Part shown: piece after piece, positions 1 to 60,275 of the stretch
Layout: each line of letters starts with the position of its first letter
Numbering within the stretch: the first letter of the stretch is position 1
Assembly: GCA_017461505.1 (NCBI GenBank)
Contig: JAFTXV010000008.1
Location: 1-64,000, forward strand
Direction: 5' to 3'
DNA length: 64,000 nucleotides
From: Paludibacteraceae bacterium
GTDB lineage: Bacteria > Bacteroidota > Bacteroidia > Bacteroidales > Paludibacteraceae
Translations under genes and position numbers: made by a program
Notes under the pieces: model-generated
Databases searched by the model: none
The model's input: the letters and a program-made list of their open reading frames with translations, nothing else
Told to the model about the DNA's origin: nothing

Positions 1-3000
1 AATACATAATTGTATTGTGCAGTAGAAGGACGAGTTGGTGTTTCGCCCATATATTCAGGCAATGCCCCATATTCTACCTCTGAGGATTGCAACTCTACTC
101 CGTTGTAGTTCAAGAAGTGGATTTGATACTTACGCTTTGTTACAGTGTAGGTGGCGGTATAGGTTGCGTCTGTAGTTACAGGAGCGAATTCTGGTGTCCA
201 ACCTATAAATGTATAAGTATATTCTACGGTAGTCGCTTTAGTAGGTGTCTCGCCTGTATAAACGGGCATTTCACCCTCTGCTACTTGACTAGTTTGCAAT
301 ACGGTGCCATCTTCATTAACGAAAGTGATAGTGTAATAGATAATTATCTTTTCGTACTGTGCCGTCACAGTCAAATCACTCTGCACATTGTTGAAGTCCT
401 TATCCCAACCAACAAAAGTATATCCCTCGCGCACAGGGTCGGCAGGAGCAGTAGCAGATCTGCCTTGTCGCACCTTTTCTGTCTTAAGCGAAGTTCCATC
501 CCAATCCATGAAGTTGACAGTAAATTCAGGAATCATATTTGCTGAATAGGTAGCCGTATAAGTAGCATCTGTAGTCACAGGCACTAGTTCTGGAGTCCAT
601 CCCGCAAAAGTGTAGGTGTATTCTTCAGTTGCGGCTTTCGTAGGCGTTGCACCTGTATATGCAGGCATTTCGCCTTCGCGCACTTGCCCAGTCTGCAATA
701 CAGTGCCATCCTCGTTCACGAAAGTGATAGTAAAGAAGTCATTGGAGGTAACCGTTACCTCGCATGTGGCAGTAAGTCCGCTTTCTTCAGTTGTGGCAGT
801 GATTGTCGCTTTGCCTGCAGCAAGAGCCTTTATATCAAAACTAATATTTCGAAGAGAAGTGTGTATGCTCTCTTCATCAATGGTAATGACATTCTCATTG
901 CTGATCTTAAAGAGAACTGTTTCTGTTGCCCCACGTGTCTTATTCAACTGAATGTATTTAGTTTCTCCTTTTACCATTGAAACAGATGTGTTTTGGAAAC
1001 TCATTTCGGTGATAAGCACTTTTTTATTGATACTAAGACCATATTCTGCATAACGATCAGAGTTTCCTAACAATTTTGCTCGGATGTAGATACGTCCTGT
1101 TTCTTTCAAACCAATTACTTTGCACGAGTCGCCCATTGGAAGGAGCTTGACATAAATACTATCACTCGGCATACGGAGCACCCATTCTACATCGCGCATA
1201 GTGGTGTTTTCTGGTGTAAAATGGACTGTCAGCATACAAGTATCACCCTCGTAGATCTCCGAATCTTCATCCGAACTGATAATCTCCATGCGAGAAGGCT
1301 GGATATGTTCTACTGTAAATTCTTTGGTGGTAGTGAACGACGGATTGGTACTCGTCAGCGTGATAGTAGCCGTCCCTACACCTACTGCCGTCACCATACC
1401 ATTCTGATCTACCTTGAGAACACTATCATCACTGCTTGACCAAGCAAAAGAGTCAGGATATACACTTGCTTCTATAGGCGTTGTCTGTGCCATTAACTGC
1501 AATGTTTCACCTACCTGGATGGTCGTCTTATCTACCCCTATACTGATACCCGTCATTTCGTAATATTTAATAGGAATTTTAGAGGTGTAGTTATGGGTAT
1601 ATCCTTTAGGATGAAAAGCTTCTAATACTACATCACCCTCTTTATGCACCGATAATATATACAAACCACATCTGATAGGTGTACTACTTCCATAAATAAA
1701 ACTTGGAATCACTGTATCTTGCGACAATACCTCTACACTTACCACATCGGGATTGCTATTCTTGATAGTGAATGGTTGGTGTAAACTATCTGGAGTAATA
1801 TAGAATGCCACTTGATATTCCCATCCGACAACCTTCCAATTGCCCTCTGGTTCTACCCACTCTGTTGTTCCTATACGACGACATTGTTTTACATATCCCA
1901 ATTCAACTTGTGGTTTATGTACATTCACTGTACATGTCTTCTGGTAATTACCCTCATAAGTTGAAGCAGTAATGACAAACTTGTTGATGCTCAAAGAAGT
2001 TTTGTCATACGATGTAGTTACCAACCCATTGGAATCAATGGATAATAGCTTATCATGGCCATTAGCATCCAAGTATTTCTTTGTCCAAATAATTTGCTGT
2101 TCCAATGCACTATCAGGCAACACTTTCGCATGCAATTGCAATTGTTCGCCCTCTATAATATCAAAGGTCATTCCTGCCTCGGAGAAGTCAATGCCCGTTA
2201 CTTTCACAGGATCTGGGCTATCGGGGATATTCTCTTCGTAGAAACAACGCAGGTATGGATAACCACCATTGATGGTATCGTTTCTGCCCCAAATGCTGTC
2301 AAAGTCAAAGCCAGCAAAACTGCCCTTGGCATGCATCTCGTTAGTAGTCAATGCTGTTCCAGTTTGGGCTCCTGCCTTTGGACTCAACTCCTTATTATAA
2401 TATACATTGCTGATTGTGCCACCAGCTACACCCTCTTGCCAACTGCCACCTGCCACATAGGAATTGCTGATACTACCATTATTCCAATCTACAAGACCCG
2501 AGCCAAATAGTCCCCTTACGGTGACATTAATATCCATCGGAATAAACACAAGATCTACTTGCGAATAACAATCGGTTACGACACCGCCTGCATCGTAATT
2601 AATACCTCCCAACTGACCAACAAGACCGCCAATATCTTCATTACTATTGGCATCTACAACAATCCTACCTTGGGTGAAACATTGCGTAATCGTTCCATCA
2701 CGCAGTACACCTGCCAGCAGTCCTATATTACTATCTATTTTATTGCCGCGCATATCAGCTACGGATGCTTGAAGACCCAAATTGCGAATCACAGTTGTCT
2801 CGCCTTTAGTTCCTATATAGCCAAACAAACCATGTTCTGCAAGCTCTATAATAGTCTCTTCATTACCATCCATATACAAACCACTTATCACATGACCTTG
2901 ACCATCAAAAGTACCCAAGAATGGATGTATAGGGTCTATGTAATAACTACCCGTACCAATAGGCGTCCAAGACTCTGCATAAGTGTATTTCCCCCAATAC

Positions 3001-5894
3001 TCCCAATCGGTAGTATCATTAAGCAAGATATCACAATCGAGATAAACCGTTTTTCCTTTGAAGTTATTTGGTGTCAACACGCCATCTATACCATTTACCG
3101 CGTGCACAAAGCCAAGCAATTGCGCTTTGTTGGTGATATGGAACTCCGTAGCGAACTTATTGCTGAATATGGAATAATCATAGTCGTCGTATGTAGGTTC
3201 TAACCACTTCGCATAGAGTGTCATGCTTTGTGTAATCGCTGTAGAATCGAAGTCAAAGACCTTCGTAAAGCCCGCATCTTCATACCATCCAGCAAAGATA
3301 TGTCCTTCCTTCGTTGGTTTGTCAGGCATCAATAAATGACTATTCTCTGATACTCTCTTTGCAGCTACTTCCGAACCGCCGTTGCTCTCAAAGGTAACTA
3401 CCAAACTAGGTTTATAATCTGGATTAACCTTCGGATAGTCACCCTCCCGTGGTTGCCAATAGTCAAGTTTGTAGGCATGCGTAGCATTCCAATTATCTAC
3501 ATAATCATTGAGGATATTTGCAAAATCTTCACTTTGTAGATATGCGGTAGGACGACCGAGGTTGTTGTAATCTCTTTCATCTTTATAGACTTTCAACACA
3601 TCCGAATCAAAATAACCATTTTGTGATACTATCCAAGAATCTTGATCATCAGGTACCCTGAGCGCACAATAAGACATATTGCATCGTTTGGTAAGAGTAC
3701 CAGTAAAGAGGAAGTTGCCAATGGTATCCGTACCACCAATACCACCTTGATGCGTTACTGCACTTGGTTGCTCTGCCGCATACACATCTGCTGAAGAGGA
3801 GCAGTTCAATATCCAGTTATCACCCTCCAACGCGATGCCGTTTACAATAGCTGATACAGCAATCAACCAATACACATTGTCAGGATCACCTACCGTACCC
3901 GAAGTATGGCATTGCGAAATATAGACATTATTAGCATAGCGATCCACATCACTTGCCAAAATAGCAACACCAGCGTGTGTACCTGAGGAAATGACATAAG
4001 CATCTGTCACACTAAGATTTTTAATCACTGCATTGTGATATAAGATACCAAACAAGCCCGCAGGACGACCTGCAGGGTCATCTATATACATATTCTCTAT
4101 TTTATGGAAGTCACCATCATATGTACCACGGAAATAATAGGTATGCGAACGCTCTACCATATAATGTGGTTCGTAGTTGGTGACAAACTTCATCGTACCA
4201 ATAGCTGTCCACATCTCTGGCATTTGTACCCCCCATTGTGCGCGAGGAGCATTCAATGCAATGTCCACCGTCTGACGGATATATTTGCCTTCGAACGTCT
4301 CACCATTATTCACCATATCGCGGATATTCTCAAGGTGTTGCTTGGTACCAACGAGGAAAGGATCTTCTTCGGTGCCCGAACCACCTGCTAGATAATCAGT
4401 GATATTGGTAGCATTCACCCCCGTAGGAACAGGATAATCGCCCGCGCGGTACTCCCATGTGCTAATTCCATACAAGGCAGCATACATATTGAGTTCATCC
4501 ACAAAGGCTTGGCTCTTCATATAGGATTCAGGCAACTCTTCCACACCGCCACGTATGCCCATCAAGGTATCAGGGCGAACTTGTCGGTAAGAGCAGTTGA
4601 CAATTTTTGCTGCATTGTTTCCATAACTATCCAAAAAACCTCGCGATGGTCGTCCTGCAGGATAACCCGTTGAATTCAGTTCGTTGCGAATATCCGTTTT
4701 ACCCGTAGCAAAACAGTTAATCAGCGTACCAGGCACATCTGTAGGATAAACGTCACCACTTGCATCACGACCATTCATGCCACAGAAAGCCGACGCTGAT
4801 GAGCCATAGCCATCGGTTTCGTCATGCACATCACCTGTGCAATAACAACTCTCTATATGTCCTCTGTTCCATCCCACAAAACCGCCACCACTTTGACCAT
4901 AGATATGTACATTGCCTTTGGCAGAACAGTTACGGATTATACCACCTTGTACATTTGTTCCTACAAAACCACCACAATCAAAATAAGCATGATAATAGTA
5001 TGCGCGCGACACACGACCTGTAGCGTGGCAGTTTTCTATCAAACCTGAGTTAGAGCTAGTCAAGCCACCTGCATTGTATTCTGTACAATGTGCGATACCA
5101 GCAGCAGAACAATTACGCACAATGCCATCAGCATCCACATAGCCAATCAGTCCACCTGCTCCGCGCGATGCGTATGCATCTACATTGGCAGAGCAATTGA
5201 GAACCTGTCCGCTAATCAATTCTGCAATCAAACCGCCTGCAGGACCACCATAGTCTGGGTCTGTATTCATTACTATTCCCGTAGCGTGGCAGTTTTCTAT
5301 CACAGAGTTTCCTTTTACTTGCAATGCGAGGGTTGCAATACTAGAAGCACCTGTCAAGACCGCATTCTCCAAACGGACATTCTTGATAGTAGCATTCTCC
5401 ACGAAGCCAAACAATGCTTTAGCCCAACCAGAGAAGTCAGGTCCCCCCATGCCTCCAAGAGGATTATCAGGATCATCCCAATCAGGGGCATCAGGCGTTG
5501 TACCATGGAAGAGGTTGTAAATCGTATGGTTTTTACCATCGAAATTACCTCTAAACCATGCGGTATCTAAGGTGTATTCCCATCCTGAACCACCACTCTG
5601 GAATTGACCAATAGGATGTGTCCACTCGTATTTGAGACTGTCTCCCAAAGTGGAGTCGCTGAGATAAATATCTGCTGCTAACTCAATATAGCGTCCCGAG
5701 AAGTCATCTCCACGATTAACGCTATCAGCAAAGCCCGCCAACTGCTCTGCCGTTGAAATGAGGATAGGATCATCTGCCGTACCCGAACCTGTCCATGACT
5801 TGTCAACAGTACCATTCCAATAGGTCTGTGCGTGTGCCATAGGAGCCAAAAGAATGCTCTGCACCATCAAGATAATAGTGAGAATCTGTTTCAT
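1..5894 (-). CDS. Giant secreted GLUG / Big_2 / InlB-repeat protein (3' end outside window)
   Basis: An uninterrupted minus-strand frame runs from the ATG at 5894 to the window edge, about 1964 residues, and is cut off at its C-terminus. The first ~22 residues (MKQILTIILMVQS, then APMAHAQ) form a Sec signal peptide ending in an AxA site. Residues ~25-1200 contain many GLUG-type repeats with motifs such as GGLIGYVDADG, GGFVG and GLFGYIG, which are typical of Bacteroidales surface proteins. One InlB/Flg_new repeat (TFESNGGSEVAAKR) interrupts this part. Big_2-like domains follow (VTGIDFSEAGMTF; MTGISIGVDKTT with WSSSDDSVLKVD). The last part seen has four tandem InlB-type repeats, two of them near copies (ITFVNEDGTVLQT). 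The fold predicts a cell-surface or secreted beta-rich protein, probably an adhesin; the ligand is unknown. A structured leader (5971-6146) and a promoter (6191-6221) lie upstream. Confidence 0.9.
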   Translation of the reverse strand, partial: MKQILTIILMVQSILLAPMAHAQTYWNGTVDKSWTGSGTADDPILISTAEQLAGFADSVNRGDDFSGRYIELAADIYLSDSTLGDSLKYEWTHPIGQFQSGGSGWEYTLDTAWFRGNFDGKNHTIYNLFHGTTPDAPDWDDPDNPLGGMGGPDFSGWAKALFGFVENATIKNVRLENAVLTGASSIATLALQVKGNSVIENCHATGIVMNTDPDYGGPAGGLIAELISGQVLNCSANVDAYASRGAGGLIGYVDADGIVRNCSAAGIAHCTEYNAGGLTSSNSGLIENCHATGRVSRAYYYHAYFDCGGFVGTNVQGGIIRNCSAKGNVHIYGQSGGGFVGWNRGHIESCYCTGDVHDETDGYGSSASAFCGMNGRDASGDVYPTDVPGTLINCFATGKTDIRNELNSTGYPAGRPSRGFLDSYGNNAAKIVNCSYRQVRPDTLMGIRGGVEELPESYMKSQAFVDELNMYAALYGISTWEYRAGDYPVPTGVNATNITDYLAGGSGTEEDPFLVGTKQHLENIRDMVNNGETFEGKYIRQTVDIALNAPRAQWGVQMPEMWTAIGTMKFVTNYEPHYMVERSHTYYFRGTYDGDFHKIENMYIDDPAGRPAGLFGILYHNAVIKNLSVTDAYVISSGTHAGVAILASDVDRYANNVYISQCHTSGTVGDPDNVYWLIAVSAIVNGIALEGDNWILNCSSSADVYAAEQPSAVTHQGGIGGTDTIGNFLFTGTLTKRCNMSYCALRVPDDQDSWIVSQNGYFDSDVLKVYKDERDYNNLGRPTAYLQSEDFANILNDYVDNWNATHAYKLDYWQPREGDYPKVNPDYKPSLVVTFESNGGSEVAAKRVSENSHLLMPDKPTKEGHIFAGWYEDAGFTKVFDFDSTAITQSMTLYAKWLEPTYDDYDYSIFSNKFATEFHITNKAQLLGFVHAVNGIDGVLTPNNFKGKTVYLDCDILLNDTTDWEYWGKYTYAESWTPIGTGSYYIDPIHPFLGTFDGQGHVISGLYMDGNEETIIELAEHGLFGYIGTKGETTVIRNLGLQASVADMRGNKIDSNIGLLAGVLRDGTITQCFTQGRIVVDANSNEDIGGLVGQLGGINYDAGGVVTDCYSQVDLVFIPMDINVTVRGLFGSGLVDWNNGSISNSYVAGGSWQEGVAGGTISNVYYNKELSPKAGAQTGTALTTNEMHAKGSFAGFDFDSIWGRNDTINGGYPYLRCFYEENIPDSPDPVKVTGIDFSEAGMTFDIIEGEQLQLHAKVLPDSALEQQIIWTKKYLDANGHDKLLSIDSNGLVTTSYDKTSLSINKFVITASTYEGNYQKTCTVNVHKPQVELGYVKQCRRIGTTEWVEPEGNWKVVGWEYQVAFYITPDSLHQPFTIKNSNPDVVSVEVLSQDTVIPSFIYGSSTPIRCGLYILSVHKEGDVVLEAFHPKGYTHNYTSKIPIKYYEMTGISIGVDKTTIQVGETLQLMAQTTPIEASVYPDSFAWSSSDDSVLKVDQNGMVTAVGVGTATITLTSTNPSFTTTKEFTVEHIQPSRMEIISSDEDSEIYEGDTCMLTVHFTPENTTMRDVEWVLRMPSDSIYVKLLPMGDSCKVIGLKETGRIYIRAKLLGNSDRYAEYGLSINKKVLITEMSFQNTSVSMVKGETKYIQLNKTRGATETVLFKISNENVITIDEESIHTSLRNISFDIKALAAGKATITATTEESGLTATCEVTVTSNDFFTITFVNEDGTVLQTGQVREGEMPAYTGATPTKAATEEYTYTFAGWTPELVPVTTDATYTATYSANMIPEFTVNFMDWDGTSLKTEKVRQGRSATAPADPVREGYTFVGWDKDFNNVQSDLTVTAQYEKIIIYYTITFVNEDGTVLQTSQVAEGEMPVYTGETPTKATTVEYTYTFIGWTPEFAPVTTDATYTATYTVTKRKYQIHFLNYNGVELQSSEVEYGALPEYMGETPTRPSTAQYNYV

Positions 5895-5964
5895 AATGAT
5901 TAGTTTTTAGGGTGTTTATATATGGATTTGTTTTGTATCGTGTGTCATTAGGGTGTATATATAC

Positions 5965-5990
5965 AAAAAGAGCGTGAACTTTCGTTCGCT
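5965..5990 (-). terminator. Terminator-like hairpin at the end of leader element copy 1
   Basis: On the minus strand AGCGAAC, a GAAA tetraloop and GTTCACGCT form a short bulged stem followed by CTTTTTG. The ACGCT arm is the same strand that closes stem P0 of the element, so the two pairings exclude each other. This is the arrangement of an attenuator. Termination itself is inferred. Confidence 0.5.
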
Positions 5991-6146
5991 TCATTTGAGT
6001 TTTTGAGGCCTTCGACTACCTTTATCTATCAAATTCTACGCAAAAGCCCACGCCAAAAGCGTGAGCGTCGATAGGCTTTTGCTTGATAGATAAAAAGTTT
6101 TTAAAAGTGTCGAAGTTTCAAAAACTCAAGTTTGGCTTATAACGCT
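5971..6146 (-). promoter_or_regulatory. Structured leader element, copy 1 (candidate riboswitch/attenuator)
   Basis: Nested inverted repeats fold this stretch into one long branched hairpin. In plus coordinates the stems are: P0 5971-5975/6142-6146 (agcgt/acgct), P1 5995-6006/6118-6129 (12 bp), P2 6010-6016/6109-6115, P3 6021-6032/6083-6094 (12 bp), P4 6040-6048/6074-6082 and P5 6049-6053/6059-6063. The copy at 60006-60185 keeps the same architecture and linker sequences but has different stem sequences. It lies between a good promoter (6191-6221) and the start codon of the giant protein, so it should be transcribed as 5' UTR. I recognise no named RNA family; a stand-alone small RNA is an alternative. 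Confidence 0.75.
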
Positions 6147-6190
6147 ATATTAAATATTTAGTGATGGGTAACGCTTTACCGAATCGGTTG

Positions 6191-6221
6191 CAAAGGTAGT
6201 AAAAATATTGCGGATGTGCAA
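6191..6221 (-). promoter_or_regulatory. Bacteroidales promoter for the giant protein
   Basis: Minus strand: TTGC at 6221-6218, a 19-nt spacer, then TACCTTTG at 6198-6191, matching the Bacteroidetes -33/-7 pattern. Transcription should start near 6186, giving a ~290-nt leader that includes the structured element. Confidence 0.75.
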
Positions 6222-58603: not shown

Positions 58604-59899
58604 TTATAAGAGGACATACTTATTTTTATCAGGATTAGCAATATCTTTTTGTACATGCCATATTTTTATTCGCGCATTGTCCCAACCGTTATTGTTGATT
58701 ATGCGTAGTTTACGTAATTCTACAGTTTGTTTTTTTGCTTTTTTATTGGTATCATAAACATTTTGGGCTGCTTGTTTGATATATGTAGCATAATCATGTG
58801 GCATAACTGCTTTTTTATCTGCCAATCTCCACGAATCTTTTGTCTTAACAACATCAAATGTGAGTGTTTCTACTTGAACACTATAAGATTCGGATAGATA
58901 TTGCTCCAAACTACATGTTCGCTGCGTATTAGGTTCTGTTACTGTTGCGATTTTTAAGATGCCTTTGACCAATAAATCGGAAATCAACGAAGCTACCGTA
59001 TCTTTCTCTCCATCTGGAACTTCTACATAAAATTCACTTTCAGGAGGAATGCTTACATACAATTTTGTTTTTTCCTCCAACTTTAACATATCGTTCAAGA
59101 CCATTTGCGTGTAGCGTTCTTCTTCCAAATCAAGGAATAACTTGTGAATTAAATTTGCTGCTTCAGGATTTTCCTTTGAGAGTTTTTGCGGTTTAAGATT
59201 ACTTACAAACTGTTGATATTTTCTTTCAAGTTCTGCTTTTCTTTCCGCTTCTGCATATGCTTCGTACTCTTGTTTTGATACTTCTTTTATTTCATTAGTA
59301 GATATGAAGTTTGCTATTCGTAGTATGGTAGGTGTAACGTTACCCCATTTGCCAAACGAAGCAATCTCTCCATATTTTGTCCAGTATGAAAAGTCAGTAA
59401 TAGTATCAAGCTTCACAACTGTGGACTTAGTCATTTTGACAGCTTTTTGTATCACACTTTTCCCTTTATTGTTTTTATACGAAACATATACCCATTCGGA
59501 TTTACATTCATATTTCTCTCCTTTGTTATATTCTATCCATGTATTTTGCTTTGAAGGTAATTTCAAAATGGTTATTCTGTCATTCCTTCTGCTTTCACCC
59601 AAGAAATTTGAGTATAGTTGTCCTGTACTAATAACCGCATCGTCGGAAATATCATAAGCATATATTGTTATGGAACTTCCCATTGGATAACCATTCTGGT
59701 CGGTCATACGAAGTTTTTCTTGTATAACTCGTTCCCAACCACGAGAACTAACGATTATTTCTAACTCTTGAGGATATGACTCAGGAGACCAAGTGTATTC
59801 TTGAGAATACTTAGGGTAGAAATAGTCGCTTACTTTTTCTTGTGCTTGAATAGCCAATGTAAGAACTGCACTAATGACTACAAATAGTATTTTTTTCAT
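58604..59899 (-). CDS. Exported protein of unknown function
   Basis: A 431-residue protein with a signal peptide (MKKILFVVISAVLTLAIQAQ). I recognise no family. Residues ~25-200 are beta-rich with paired aromatic residues (YTWSPESYPQELEIIVSSRG), residues ~205-240 are charged helical (EVSKQEYEAYAEAERKAELE), and the C-terminus is mixed (KIWHVQKDIANPDKNKYVLL). Codon use is more AT-rich than in its neighbours. Its leader contains the second copy of the structured RNA element, which links it to the giant surface protein at the other end of the window. Confidence 0.8.
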   Translation of the reverse strand: MKKILFVVISAVLTLAIQAQEKVSDYFYPKYSQEYTWSPESYPQELEIIVSSRGWERVIQEKLRMTDQNGYPMGSSITIYAYDISDDAVISTGQLYSNFLGESRRNDRITILKLPSKQNTWIEYNKGEKYECKSEWVYVSYKNNKGKSVIQKAVKMTKSTVVKLDTITDFSYWTKYGEIASFGKWGNVTPTILRIANFISTNEIKEVSKQEYEAYAEAERKAELERKYQQFVSNLKPQKLSKENPEAANLIHKLFLDLEEERYTQMVLNDMLKLEEKTKLYVSIPPESEFYVEVPDGEKDTVASLISDLLVKGILKIATVTEPNTQRTCSLEQYLSESYSVQVETLTFDVVKTKDSWRLADKKAVMPHDYATYIKQAAQNVYDTNKKAKKQTVELRKLRIINNNGWDNARIKIWHVQKDIANPDKNKYVLL

Positions 59900-60001
59900 G
59901 TTATTAAGAATTTAAATTGCCTACTCTTTGTCGGATTTTCGGCATACTCCGTATTTTAAGTGTTTGATTTATTGTTTATTAATTGGATTTTATATACATA
60001 C

Positions 60002-60025
60002 AAAAAGCGTGAACTTTCGTTCGCT
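60002..60025 (-). terminator. Terminator-like hairpin at the end of leader element copy 2
   Basis: AGCGAAC-GAAA-GTTCACGCT followed by TTTTTG on the minus strand. Its ACGCT arm also closes P0. Confidence 0.5.
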
Positions 60026-60185
60026 TCAATTTGATTTTCTGAGGTTCTCGACTACCTTTAAGTATTCAAATCTACGCACGGAAAACTCACGCTGTAAACG
60101 CGAGCGTGCATAAACCGTACTTGAATACTTAATGATTTCTAAAAGTGTCGAGTTTTCAGAAAATCAAGTCTGGGCTTATAACGCT
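60006..60185 (-). promoter_or_regulatory. Structured leader element, copy 2 (candidate riboswitch/attenuator)
   Basis: Same architecture as 5971-6146. Stems: P0 60006-60010/60181-60185 (agcgt/acgct), P1 60031-60042/60156-60167 (12 bp), P2 60047-60052/60147-60152, P3 60058-60069/60121-60132 (12 bp), P4 60078-60081/60115-60118 and P5 60088-60093/60103-60108. P1 and P3 differ in sequence from copy 1 yet remain fully paired. The linkers TCGACTACCTTTA, AAAAGTGTCGA and TTATAACGCTATATTAAATAT are kept. No promoter is obvious just upstream; a GAATTTTGAATT-type repeat lies there (60220-60260). Confidence 0.75.
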
Positions 60186-60275
60186 ATATTAAATATGTCG
60201 GGCAACGGTATCGTTGCGGATTAACTATAAACTATGAATGATGAGTTATGAATTTTGAATTAGGAGTTGGGTGGG

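Follow-up and report, generated by a model that had tools for sequence, protein, structure and literature searches.

The window analysed here, a stretch of 64,000 nucleotides taken as a whole, carries two stretches on its minus strand which raise the question of whether they are copies of one structured element, whether the structure belongs to the RNA or to the DNA, and what it does for the genes beside it. A sequence-only reading had claimed that the two fold alike, with stem sequences that differ and stay paired. Sequence and alignments bear this out: both stretches are copies of a single element, and stems P1, P2 and P3 are complementary within each copy and differ between the copies (Table 1). 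An exact search with an 18-base core located six copies in the home genome, both window copies among them, and the covariance model gave seven matches there, the seventh being weak (E = 4.5e-5). The six copies align with long invariant linkers and with variable stems that are still paired. The start codon of the downstream gene, on the same minus strand, lies 69 nt from copy 1 and 99 nt from copy 2. The giant gene next to copy 1 is incomplete because window base 1 is also the first base of the contig, and elsewhere in the window there is a cobalamin riboswitch (RF00174, 50865-51037, minus strand, 83.9 bits).

Table 1. Positions of the two copies of the element, their parts and their neighbours in the window.
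Feature	Positions	Strand	Evidence
Leader RNA element, copy 1: core P1-P5 with the tail and the greater part of the U-run	5964..6145	-	covariance-model match, 181.4 bits, E 3.9e-36
Copy 1 promoter: TTG (6221-6219), 20 nt, TACCTTTG (6198-6191), directed towards element and gene	6191..6221	-	sequence
Copy 1 upstream hairpin H0 (GGTAA-AGCG-TTACC)	6167..6180	-	sequence
Copy 1 P1 5' arm (TTGAGTTTTTGA)	6118..6129	-	sequence, alignments
Copy 1 P2 5' arm (CTTCGAC)	6109..6115	-	sequence, alignment
Copy 1 P1alt, competing local partner for the P1 5' arm	6096..6107	-	local folds of the 5' part
Copy 1 P3 5' arm	6083..6093	-	sequence, alignments
Copy 1 P5 5' arm (GCTCACGC)	6059..6066	-	sequence, alignment
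Copy 1 P5/P4 3' arm (GCGTGGGCTTTTG), also complementary to the tail (helix T)	6041..6053	-	duplex with tail, -18.8 kcal/mol
Copy 1 P3 3' arm	6022..6032	-	sequence, alignments
Copy 1 P2 3' arm (GTCGAAG)	6010..6016	-	sequence, alignment
Copy 1 P1 3' arm (TCAAAAACTCAA)	5995..6006	-	sequence, alignments
Copy 1 3' tail GCGAACGAAAGTTCACGC: local hairpin; 3' arm of the alternative helix T	5972..5989	-	sequence, duplex energy
Copy 1 U-rich run past the tail (TCTTTTT)	5965..5971	-	sequence
Copy 1 downstream gene: giant protein, signal-peptide-like start, 1,964 residues read	1..5894	-	translation
Copy 2 of the leader RNA element	59999..60184	-	covariance-model match, 201.7 bits, E 1.8e-40
Copy 2 upstream hairpin H0 (GCAACGATACCGTTGC)	60202..60217	-	sequence
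Copy 2 P1 5' arm	60156..60167	-	sequence, alignment
Copy 2 P3 5' arm	60121..60132	-	sequence, alignment
Copy 2 P5/P4 3' arm (GCGTGAGTTTTC), complementary to the tail	60081..60092	-	duplex, -14.8 kcal/mol
Copy 2 P3 3' arm	60058..60069	-	sequence, alignment
Copy 2 P1 3' arm	60031..60042	-	sequence, alignment
Copy 2 3' tail	60007..60024	-	core search
Copy 2 U-run	60002..60006	-	sequence
DUF805b RNA (RF02914), between copy 2 and its gene	59918..59952	-	Rfam gathering match, 45.8 bits
Copy 2 downstream gene: 431 aa, signal-peptide-like start	58604..59899	-	translation

The element folds as a rod of nested helices, P1 (12 bp), P2 (7 bp), P3 (11-12 bp), P4 and P5. The minus-strand RNA of copy 1 gave a fold of -63.9 kcal/mol (z = -6.79), and none of 200 shuffles was as good. 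When 14 copies were aligned, 95.3% of cells paired (slid controls, 26-41%), and both-side changes were found at 16 of 52 pairs; 64 cells were double-changed versus 16.6 in shuffles, a count that inflates significance for related sequences, whereas slid controls preserve relatedness. The larger alignments were fitted to the structure of the model and are thus biased towards it, and their fetched copies were the best-scoring among the matches listed, so that the counts describe good matches; in these, both-side changes occurred at 31 of 52 pairs in 99 copies (covariation score 0.344, slid controls 0.036-0.063), at 33 of 45 pairs in 33 mostly distant copies (with hairpins A and B added to the structure), and at 42 of 52 pairs in 40 order-level copies from 28 genomes (0.499, slid controls 0.045-0.078). 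Broken down by helix, the 40 order-level copies were changed on both sides in 11 of 12 pairs of P1, 7 of 7 of P2 and 11 of 11 of P3. The covariance-model search had been proposed with the sequence-only reading, and its outcome, an order-wide element with covariation far above slid controls, supports the claim of a selected structure in RNA (or single-stranded DNA).

Some details of the fold did not hold up equally well. P2b (ACUU/AGGU) was rejected as a helix, since one of its pairs is unpaired in 35 of 99 copies. The local hairpin of the tail has one inner pair broken in 30 of the 88 copies with letters there in the 99-copy alignment. Hairpins A and B were mostly invariant in the 33 mostly distant copies, and it is possible that they turn P2 into a kissing-loop contact.

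Folding alone cannot assign the strand, because the plus strand of copy 1 also folds well (z = -7.52). G-U wobbles, which would be A-C mismatches if the plus strand were the active one, were counted on the minus strand of 138 copies, that is, the 140-copy set (three alignments merged, duplicates dropped) minus L020 and L062, which were judged damaged. P4 contained 109 and P5 91 such pairs (17.1% and 11.0% of cells), 200 in all, against 7 and 0 A-C mismatches (1.1% and 0%). This pattern points to an RNA of the minus, gene-sense strand. In the same 138 copies G-U pairs were scarce in P1, P2 and P3 (2.1%, 0% and 0.7%), which in our judgement is odd for a plain RNA helix. The almost purely Watson-Crick pairing of P1-P3 would suit a different explanation, namely a DNA-level element (an inverted-repeat mobile element, a recombination site or a single-strand hairpin) in which the arms pair as DNA; the 200 wobbles of P4 and P5 argue against it.

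How the stems differ between orthologous loci also bears on a DNA-level element. L077, the ortholog of window copy 2, is 97.3% identical to it over 1,200 nt downstream, and the two differ in two P1 and three P3 pairs. L079 and L085 (downstream 95.5%) differ in P1, P2 and P3 together, L007 and L207 differ from P3 to P5, L217 and L149 differ in P3 only, and the pairs L085/L091, L008/L213 and L007/L081 have identical P1, P2 and P3. The 106 copies outside the distant set contained 55 distinct P3 and 35 distinct P1 5' arms. Very fast stem evolution (hypermutation) was rejected, because orthologous pairs differ block-wise and in some none of P1-P3 has changed; in our reading of the sequences, block exchange between copies together with slower compensatory change would explain part of the stem differences. 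These block-wise differences count in favour of a DNA-level element, as does L020 (1340-1526), which looks half-swapped: the left and right arms of its P1, P2 and P3 mismatch, as in two recombined copies or an assembly chimera. A further point in its favour is a near-identical downstream stretch common to two genera, 93.7% over 588 nt between L056 (genus g51) and L084 (genus g1), where P1 is the same and P3 different. A gene that we take to be DUF1896-like goes with this stretch, and the near-identity across genera suggests transfer. Two other kinds of odd copy were seen: L062 (3001-3175, minus strand) has the P2 5' loop deleted and a P1 5' arm that matches the local partner and not the distal arm, and L012, L014 and L017 have an optional extra hairpin between the P2 5' arm and P3.

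The element is common in the window's genus, where the covariance model (E up to 0.01) matched 162 of 178 genomes with up to 12 matches each. Among 250 genomes sampled from the family, 136 had matches with E up to 0.001, and these covered 23 of 33 genera; by eye, 63 of the 136 are from the window's genus. In a sample of the order there were matches in 38 of 295 genomes, covering 31 of 183 genera, and four of these 38 genomes belong to the window's own family. The E-values of these searches are rough. A stricter pattern, run on named genomes, returned four stretches, from three Paludibacteraceae MAGs (roe-deer, sheep rumen) and one Bacteroidales MAG. Copy 2 was unmatched in phage and plasmid collections, and one exact 19-base pattern had no match among viral contigs.

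The position of the element relative to genes was analysed with a crude gene caller, which placed a same-strand gene start at most 400 nt downstream in 130 of 140 copies, an opposite-strand gene in four and no called gene in six; among copies with a called downstream gene, 130 of 134 are therefore on the same strand, and in 120 of these 130 the gene starts within 150 nt. By a home-made signal-peptide rule, 97 of the 130 downstream genes were secreted-looking, compared with 10 of 127 among the genes nearest upstream and 51 of 268 among those further upstream. About one quarter of the downstream genes did not look secreted; by eye these genes are varied and mostly secreted, and covariation ahead of varied secreted-protein genes is what the sequence-only reading had named as support for a new cis-regulatory class. 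The pattern TTG-N17-22-TAnnTTTG, which we take to be the promoter consensus, was present within 150 nt upstream of only 47 of 135 copies (five were dropped for short flanks), versus 4 of 135 in the preceding interval and 3 of 135 when the reverse strand was scanned. The distance from its end to the element is mostly 44-112 nt, so that the upstream hairpin would be part of the transcript in those copies. The earlier placement between a promoter and a start codon stands for copy 1, which has a canonical promoter, and for the leader position; copy 2 had no canonical -7 box in the upstream stretch that was inspected.

Position is thus fixed between the promoter, where its pattern is present, and a same-strand start codon, and a cis-acting leader role is well supported. 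The fixed orientation and place relative to genes are not the random arrangement that a DNA-level element would have, and together with the upstream promoter and the searches of phage, plasmid and viral sequences they make that explanation very unlikely. An attC-like site, an invertible promoter and a mobile inverted repeat are each opposed by the fixed orientation, the G-U pattern of P4 and P5 and the promoter. A mobile repeat with neither positional bias nor covariation, which the sequence-only reading had named as the result that would speak against it, is not what the copies look like.

A leader RNA could be a ligand-binding riboswitch, with a pocket formed by conserved bases that stay unpaired around P2 and P3, and with helix T or P6 (see below) as the expression platform. 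The conserved linkers beside variable stems, and the fact that genomes have several copies, each one ahead of a different gene, are consistent with this. We consider a riboswitch unlikely, given that the downstream genes are varied, mostly secreted by eye and not of one pathway, that gene content suggests no ligand, and that some distant copies have a tiny reading frame, which points to the ribosome.

A different possibility is offered by the 3' end of the element. The tail is complementary to the P5/P4 3' arm, and the resulting duplex (helix T) reached -8 kcal/mol or better in 118 of 118 parsed copies. In 33 mostly distant copies, the mean was -15.4 kcal/mol for matched tails versus -13.6 (sd 0.27) for swapped tails, with 0 of 500 swaps as good (in this earlier set, L185 was parsed with an offset of one motif). 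Helix T, the helix P0 and the tiny reading frame had been proposed before the last 40 copies were fetched, which are new and come from 28 genomes, eight of them already sampled earlier. In these 40 copies, helix T was again better with the matched tails (-13.8 versus -11.9 kcal/mol, 0 of 300 swaps as good) and reached -8 or better in 37; the other three were misparsed, the wrong site having been taken in L242, L243, L249 and probably L220. The two strands change together, for example to GCGUGAGCCGUUU/AAACGGCUUCACGC in L223 and to UCCGUG/CACGGA in L233, L238 and L253. At least four consecutive T follow the tail in 135 of 138 parsed copies and in 40 of 40 of the last copies. Judged by sequence, the tail and U-run are built like an intrinsic terminator, with the 5' arm tied up in the rod. 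A terminator stem with a U-run, exclusive with another helix, was found in sequence and covariation only.

The computed energies gave a different picture. Compared with the free minimum, folds with helix T forced were less stable by a median of 16.0 kcal/mol in the 137 copies and by 14.2 kcal/mol in the last 40. The minimum held most of T in 0 of 177 copies, and in 136 of 137 and 40 of 40 copies it had the greater part of the P5 3' arm paired upstream. The rod and T folds are not of similar stability by these energies, the rod being the predicted resting fold, and the long loop enclosed by helix T counts further against it. It is chiefly these predicted energetics that speak against a simple equilibrium switch. 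Because T is costly compared with the rod, its formation would depend on folding kinetics or on the help of a ribosome, a protein or an RNA. The high stability of the rod, for which there is no evidence of a ligand, would agree with a structural cap at the 5' end of the mRNA whose sole role is protection against decay. Such a cap is in our view very improbable, as it leaves unexplained why the tail covaries with the P5 arm and the P6 segment, and also the U-run.

We lean towards the reading that the element is a cis-acting leader RNA of mostly secreted-protein genes which works as an attenuator through helix T. It would represent a new class of cis-acting leader RNA, and probably an attenuator. 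The tail and the P5 3' arm would form an intrinsic terminator that competes with the rod. With the rod intact, RNA polymerase would continue into the gene; if the 5' half of the rod were held apart, the P5 3' arm would be freed for the tail and transcription would end at the U-run. Attenuation by helix T is likely on these sequence grounds. In the window's type of element, another strand may have two partners, since the P1 5' arm can pair with the distal arm or in a local hairpin: in 13 of 14 copies (by eye; L006 being the exception) it has a partner, P1alt, just 3' of the P2 5' arm. If this reading is correct, the element is an RNA-level route by which such bacteria could control export, and its competing helices give clear mutational predictions.

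An upstream promoter and a terminator-like 3' end are also what a 5'-UTR source of small RNA would have, in which the transcript would normally end at the U-run, a product of ~240 nt would act in trans, and the gene would be expressed by read-through. Multi-copy small RNA families are known in Bacteroides (FopS, as described in the part of PMC11697453 covered here). The near-fixed place before same-strand genes is unexpected for a free small RNA, and in many distant copies the tail pairs, as P6, with sequence after the U-run, which suggests that selection acts on the read-through RNA itself in those copies. This makes a small RNA source distinctly unlikely.

P6 and two further features belong to the distant set, which consists of 34 loci (L062-L075 and L177-L196) and includes a few closer ones (L062, L070); the remaining 106 copies are mostly from the window's genus and include the other-genus loci L056-L061. 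In P6, the tail pairs with a segment about 15-45 nt after the U-run (-9.0 versus -6.3 kcal/mol in 34 copies, -8.1 versus -6.3 in the last 40, with 0 of 200 shuffles as good each time), a test that is not independent, as P6 had been noticed by eye in both sets beforehand. P0 joins the flank ahead of the element to the flank immediately past the U-run; the energies were -9.6 versus -6.4 kcal/mol in 33 distant copies (L070 is without upstream sequence) with 0 of 300 shuffles as good, and 2 of 200 shuffles were as good in the last 40 copies. By eye, the P0 flank can instead form the local hairpin H0 in several distant copies. Neither P0 nor P6 was detected in the remaining 106 copies, where 133 of 300 shuffles matched the energy of P0 and 20 of 200 that of P6.

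The tiny reading frame starts in a GCCTATG-type motif (a loose pattern), which lies mostly 35-75 nt before the element and occurs 45 times in the 140 copies. The frame stops at most four codons past the ATG in 37 of 45 cases, compared with 3 and 18 of 45 for the two alternative frames, and gives peptides such as M, MK, MA, ME, MT, MKK and MEK; these cases are not independent because of common descent. By eye the motif is present in 22 of the 34 distant loci, where 22 of 22 frames stop early, and it occurs 22 times in the 106 other copies. Among the last 40 copies it was found in nine, with an early stop in 8 of 9 versus 3 and 4 of 9 in the other frames. Both window copies are devoid of the motif, as they are of P0 and P6, which like the frame are features of many distant copies. 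Since the frame is present only in part of the copies and in neither window copy, a ribosome step cannot be general. For part of the distant copies only, control by a ribosome on this frame is plausible: a ribosome on the 1-5 codons just before H0 could set the fold, and the strands with two partners would there be H0/P0 and tail/P6. If translated, the frame is in our impression very short for a conserved leader frame. The wider proposal of an order-wide leader RNA in which all these strands have two partners (H0/P0, P1/P1alt, P5/T, T/P6) and a ribosome on a 1-5 codon frame chooses the helices in part of the distant copies is rather doubtful as a whole. If it were true, part of the secreted proteome would be tied to translation status and not to a metabolite or a transcription factor.

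Attenuators of the trp-leader type have a promoter, a leader frame, mutually exclusive helices and a U-run before the gene. The element resembles them in its promoter, its optional putative leader frame, its predicted exclusive helices and its U-run before the gene. Unlike them, it has its alternative strands in a long nested rod that is found across an order, its frame, where present, is mostly of 1-5 codons, its targets are mostly secreted, and its terminator is a predicted one. Leader control is also known in Bacteroides from the tetQ attenuator (Wang et al. 2005, as cited in PMC5418344), likened here by its description there, which acts on translation of the resistance gene. Long 5' UTRs with short frames that recall leader peptides are described for B. 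thetaiotaomicron in the part of PMC7366714 covered.

Rfam 15 had no family at the gathering cut-off over the element in the window, in six loci or in 20 distant loci, and lax searches gave sub-gathering matches only, in line with the earlier statement that no named riboswitch or ncRNA class could be matched to it. Nor did a description of the element come up in the literature searches, the comparison being with the covered parts of PMC11697453, PMC2864571, PMC8040213, PMC7366714 and PMC5418344. The leader-RNA class is real, order-wide and absent from Rfam, and its novelty is relative to Rfam and to this literature, supplementary files excluded. If so, this would be a large class of structured RNA outside Rfam, mostly tied to secreted proteins. 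PMC8040213 reports structured RNA candidates from the human microbiome, including Bacteroidetes motifs of 80-132 bp, and the part of it covered, supplementary tables excluded, describes no leader of ~180 nt of secreted-protein genes. The Bacteroides small RNAs FopS and GibS are multicopy, and the element is like them in having many paralogous RNAs per genome. According to the part of PMC11697453 covered, FopS is a single-stranded 5' stretch, with an R1 seed, plus a terminator hairpin, acts in trans and is in Rfam; the element, compared by this described structure, is a five-helix rod in leaders and has no Rfam match, and identity with FopS/GibS was rejected on the difference in structure.

DUF805b RNA (RF02914) is cis-regulatory, as the element would be, but it is a separate neighbour of 35 nt that does not overlap it. 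It lies 3' of the element in three of six loci, and it was seen between the element and the gene in the window, at 1575-1609 of L016 and at 1668-1703 of L024. Matches at the gathering score were found in 0 of 20 distant loci; by eye, DUF805b-like leader segments follow some of the distant copies.
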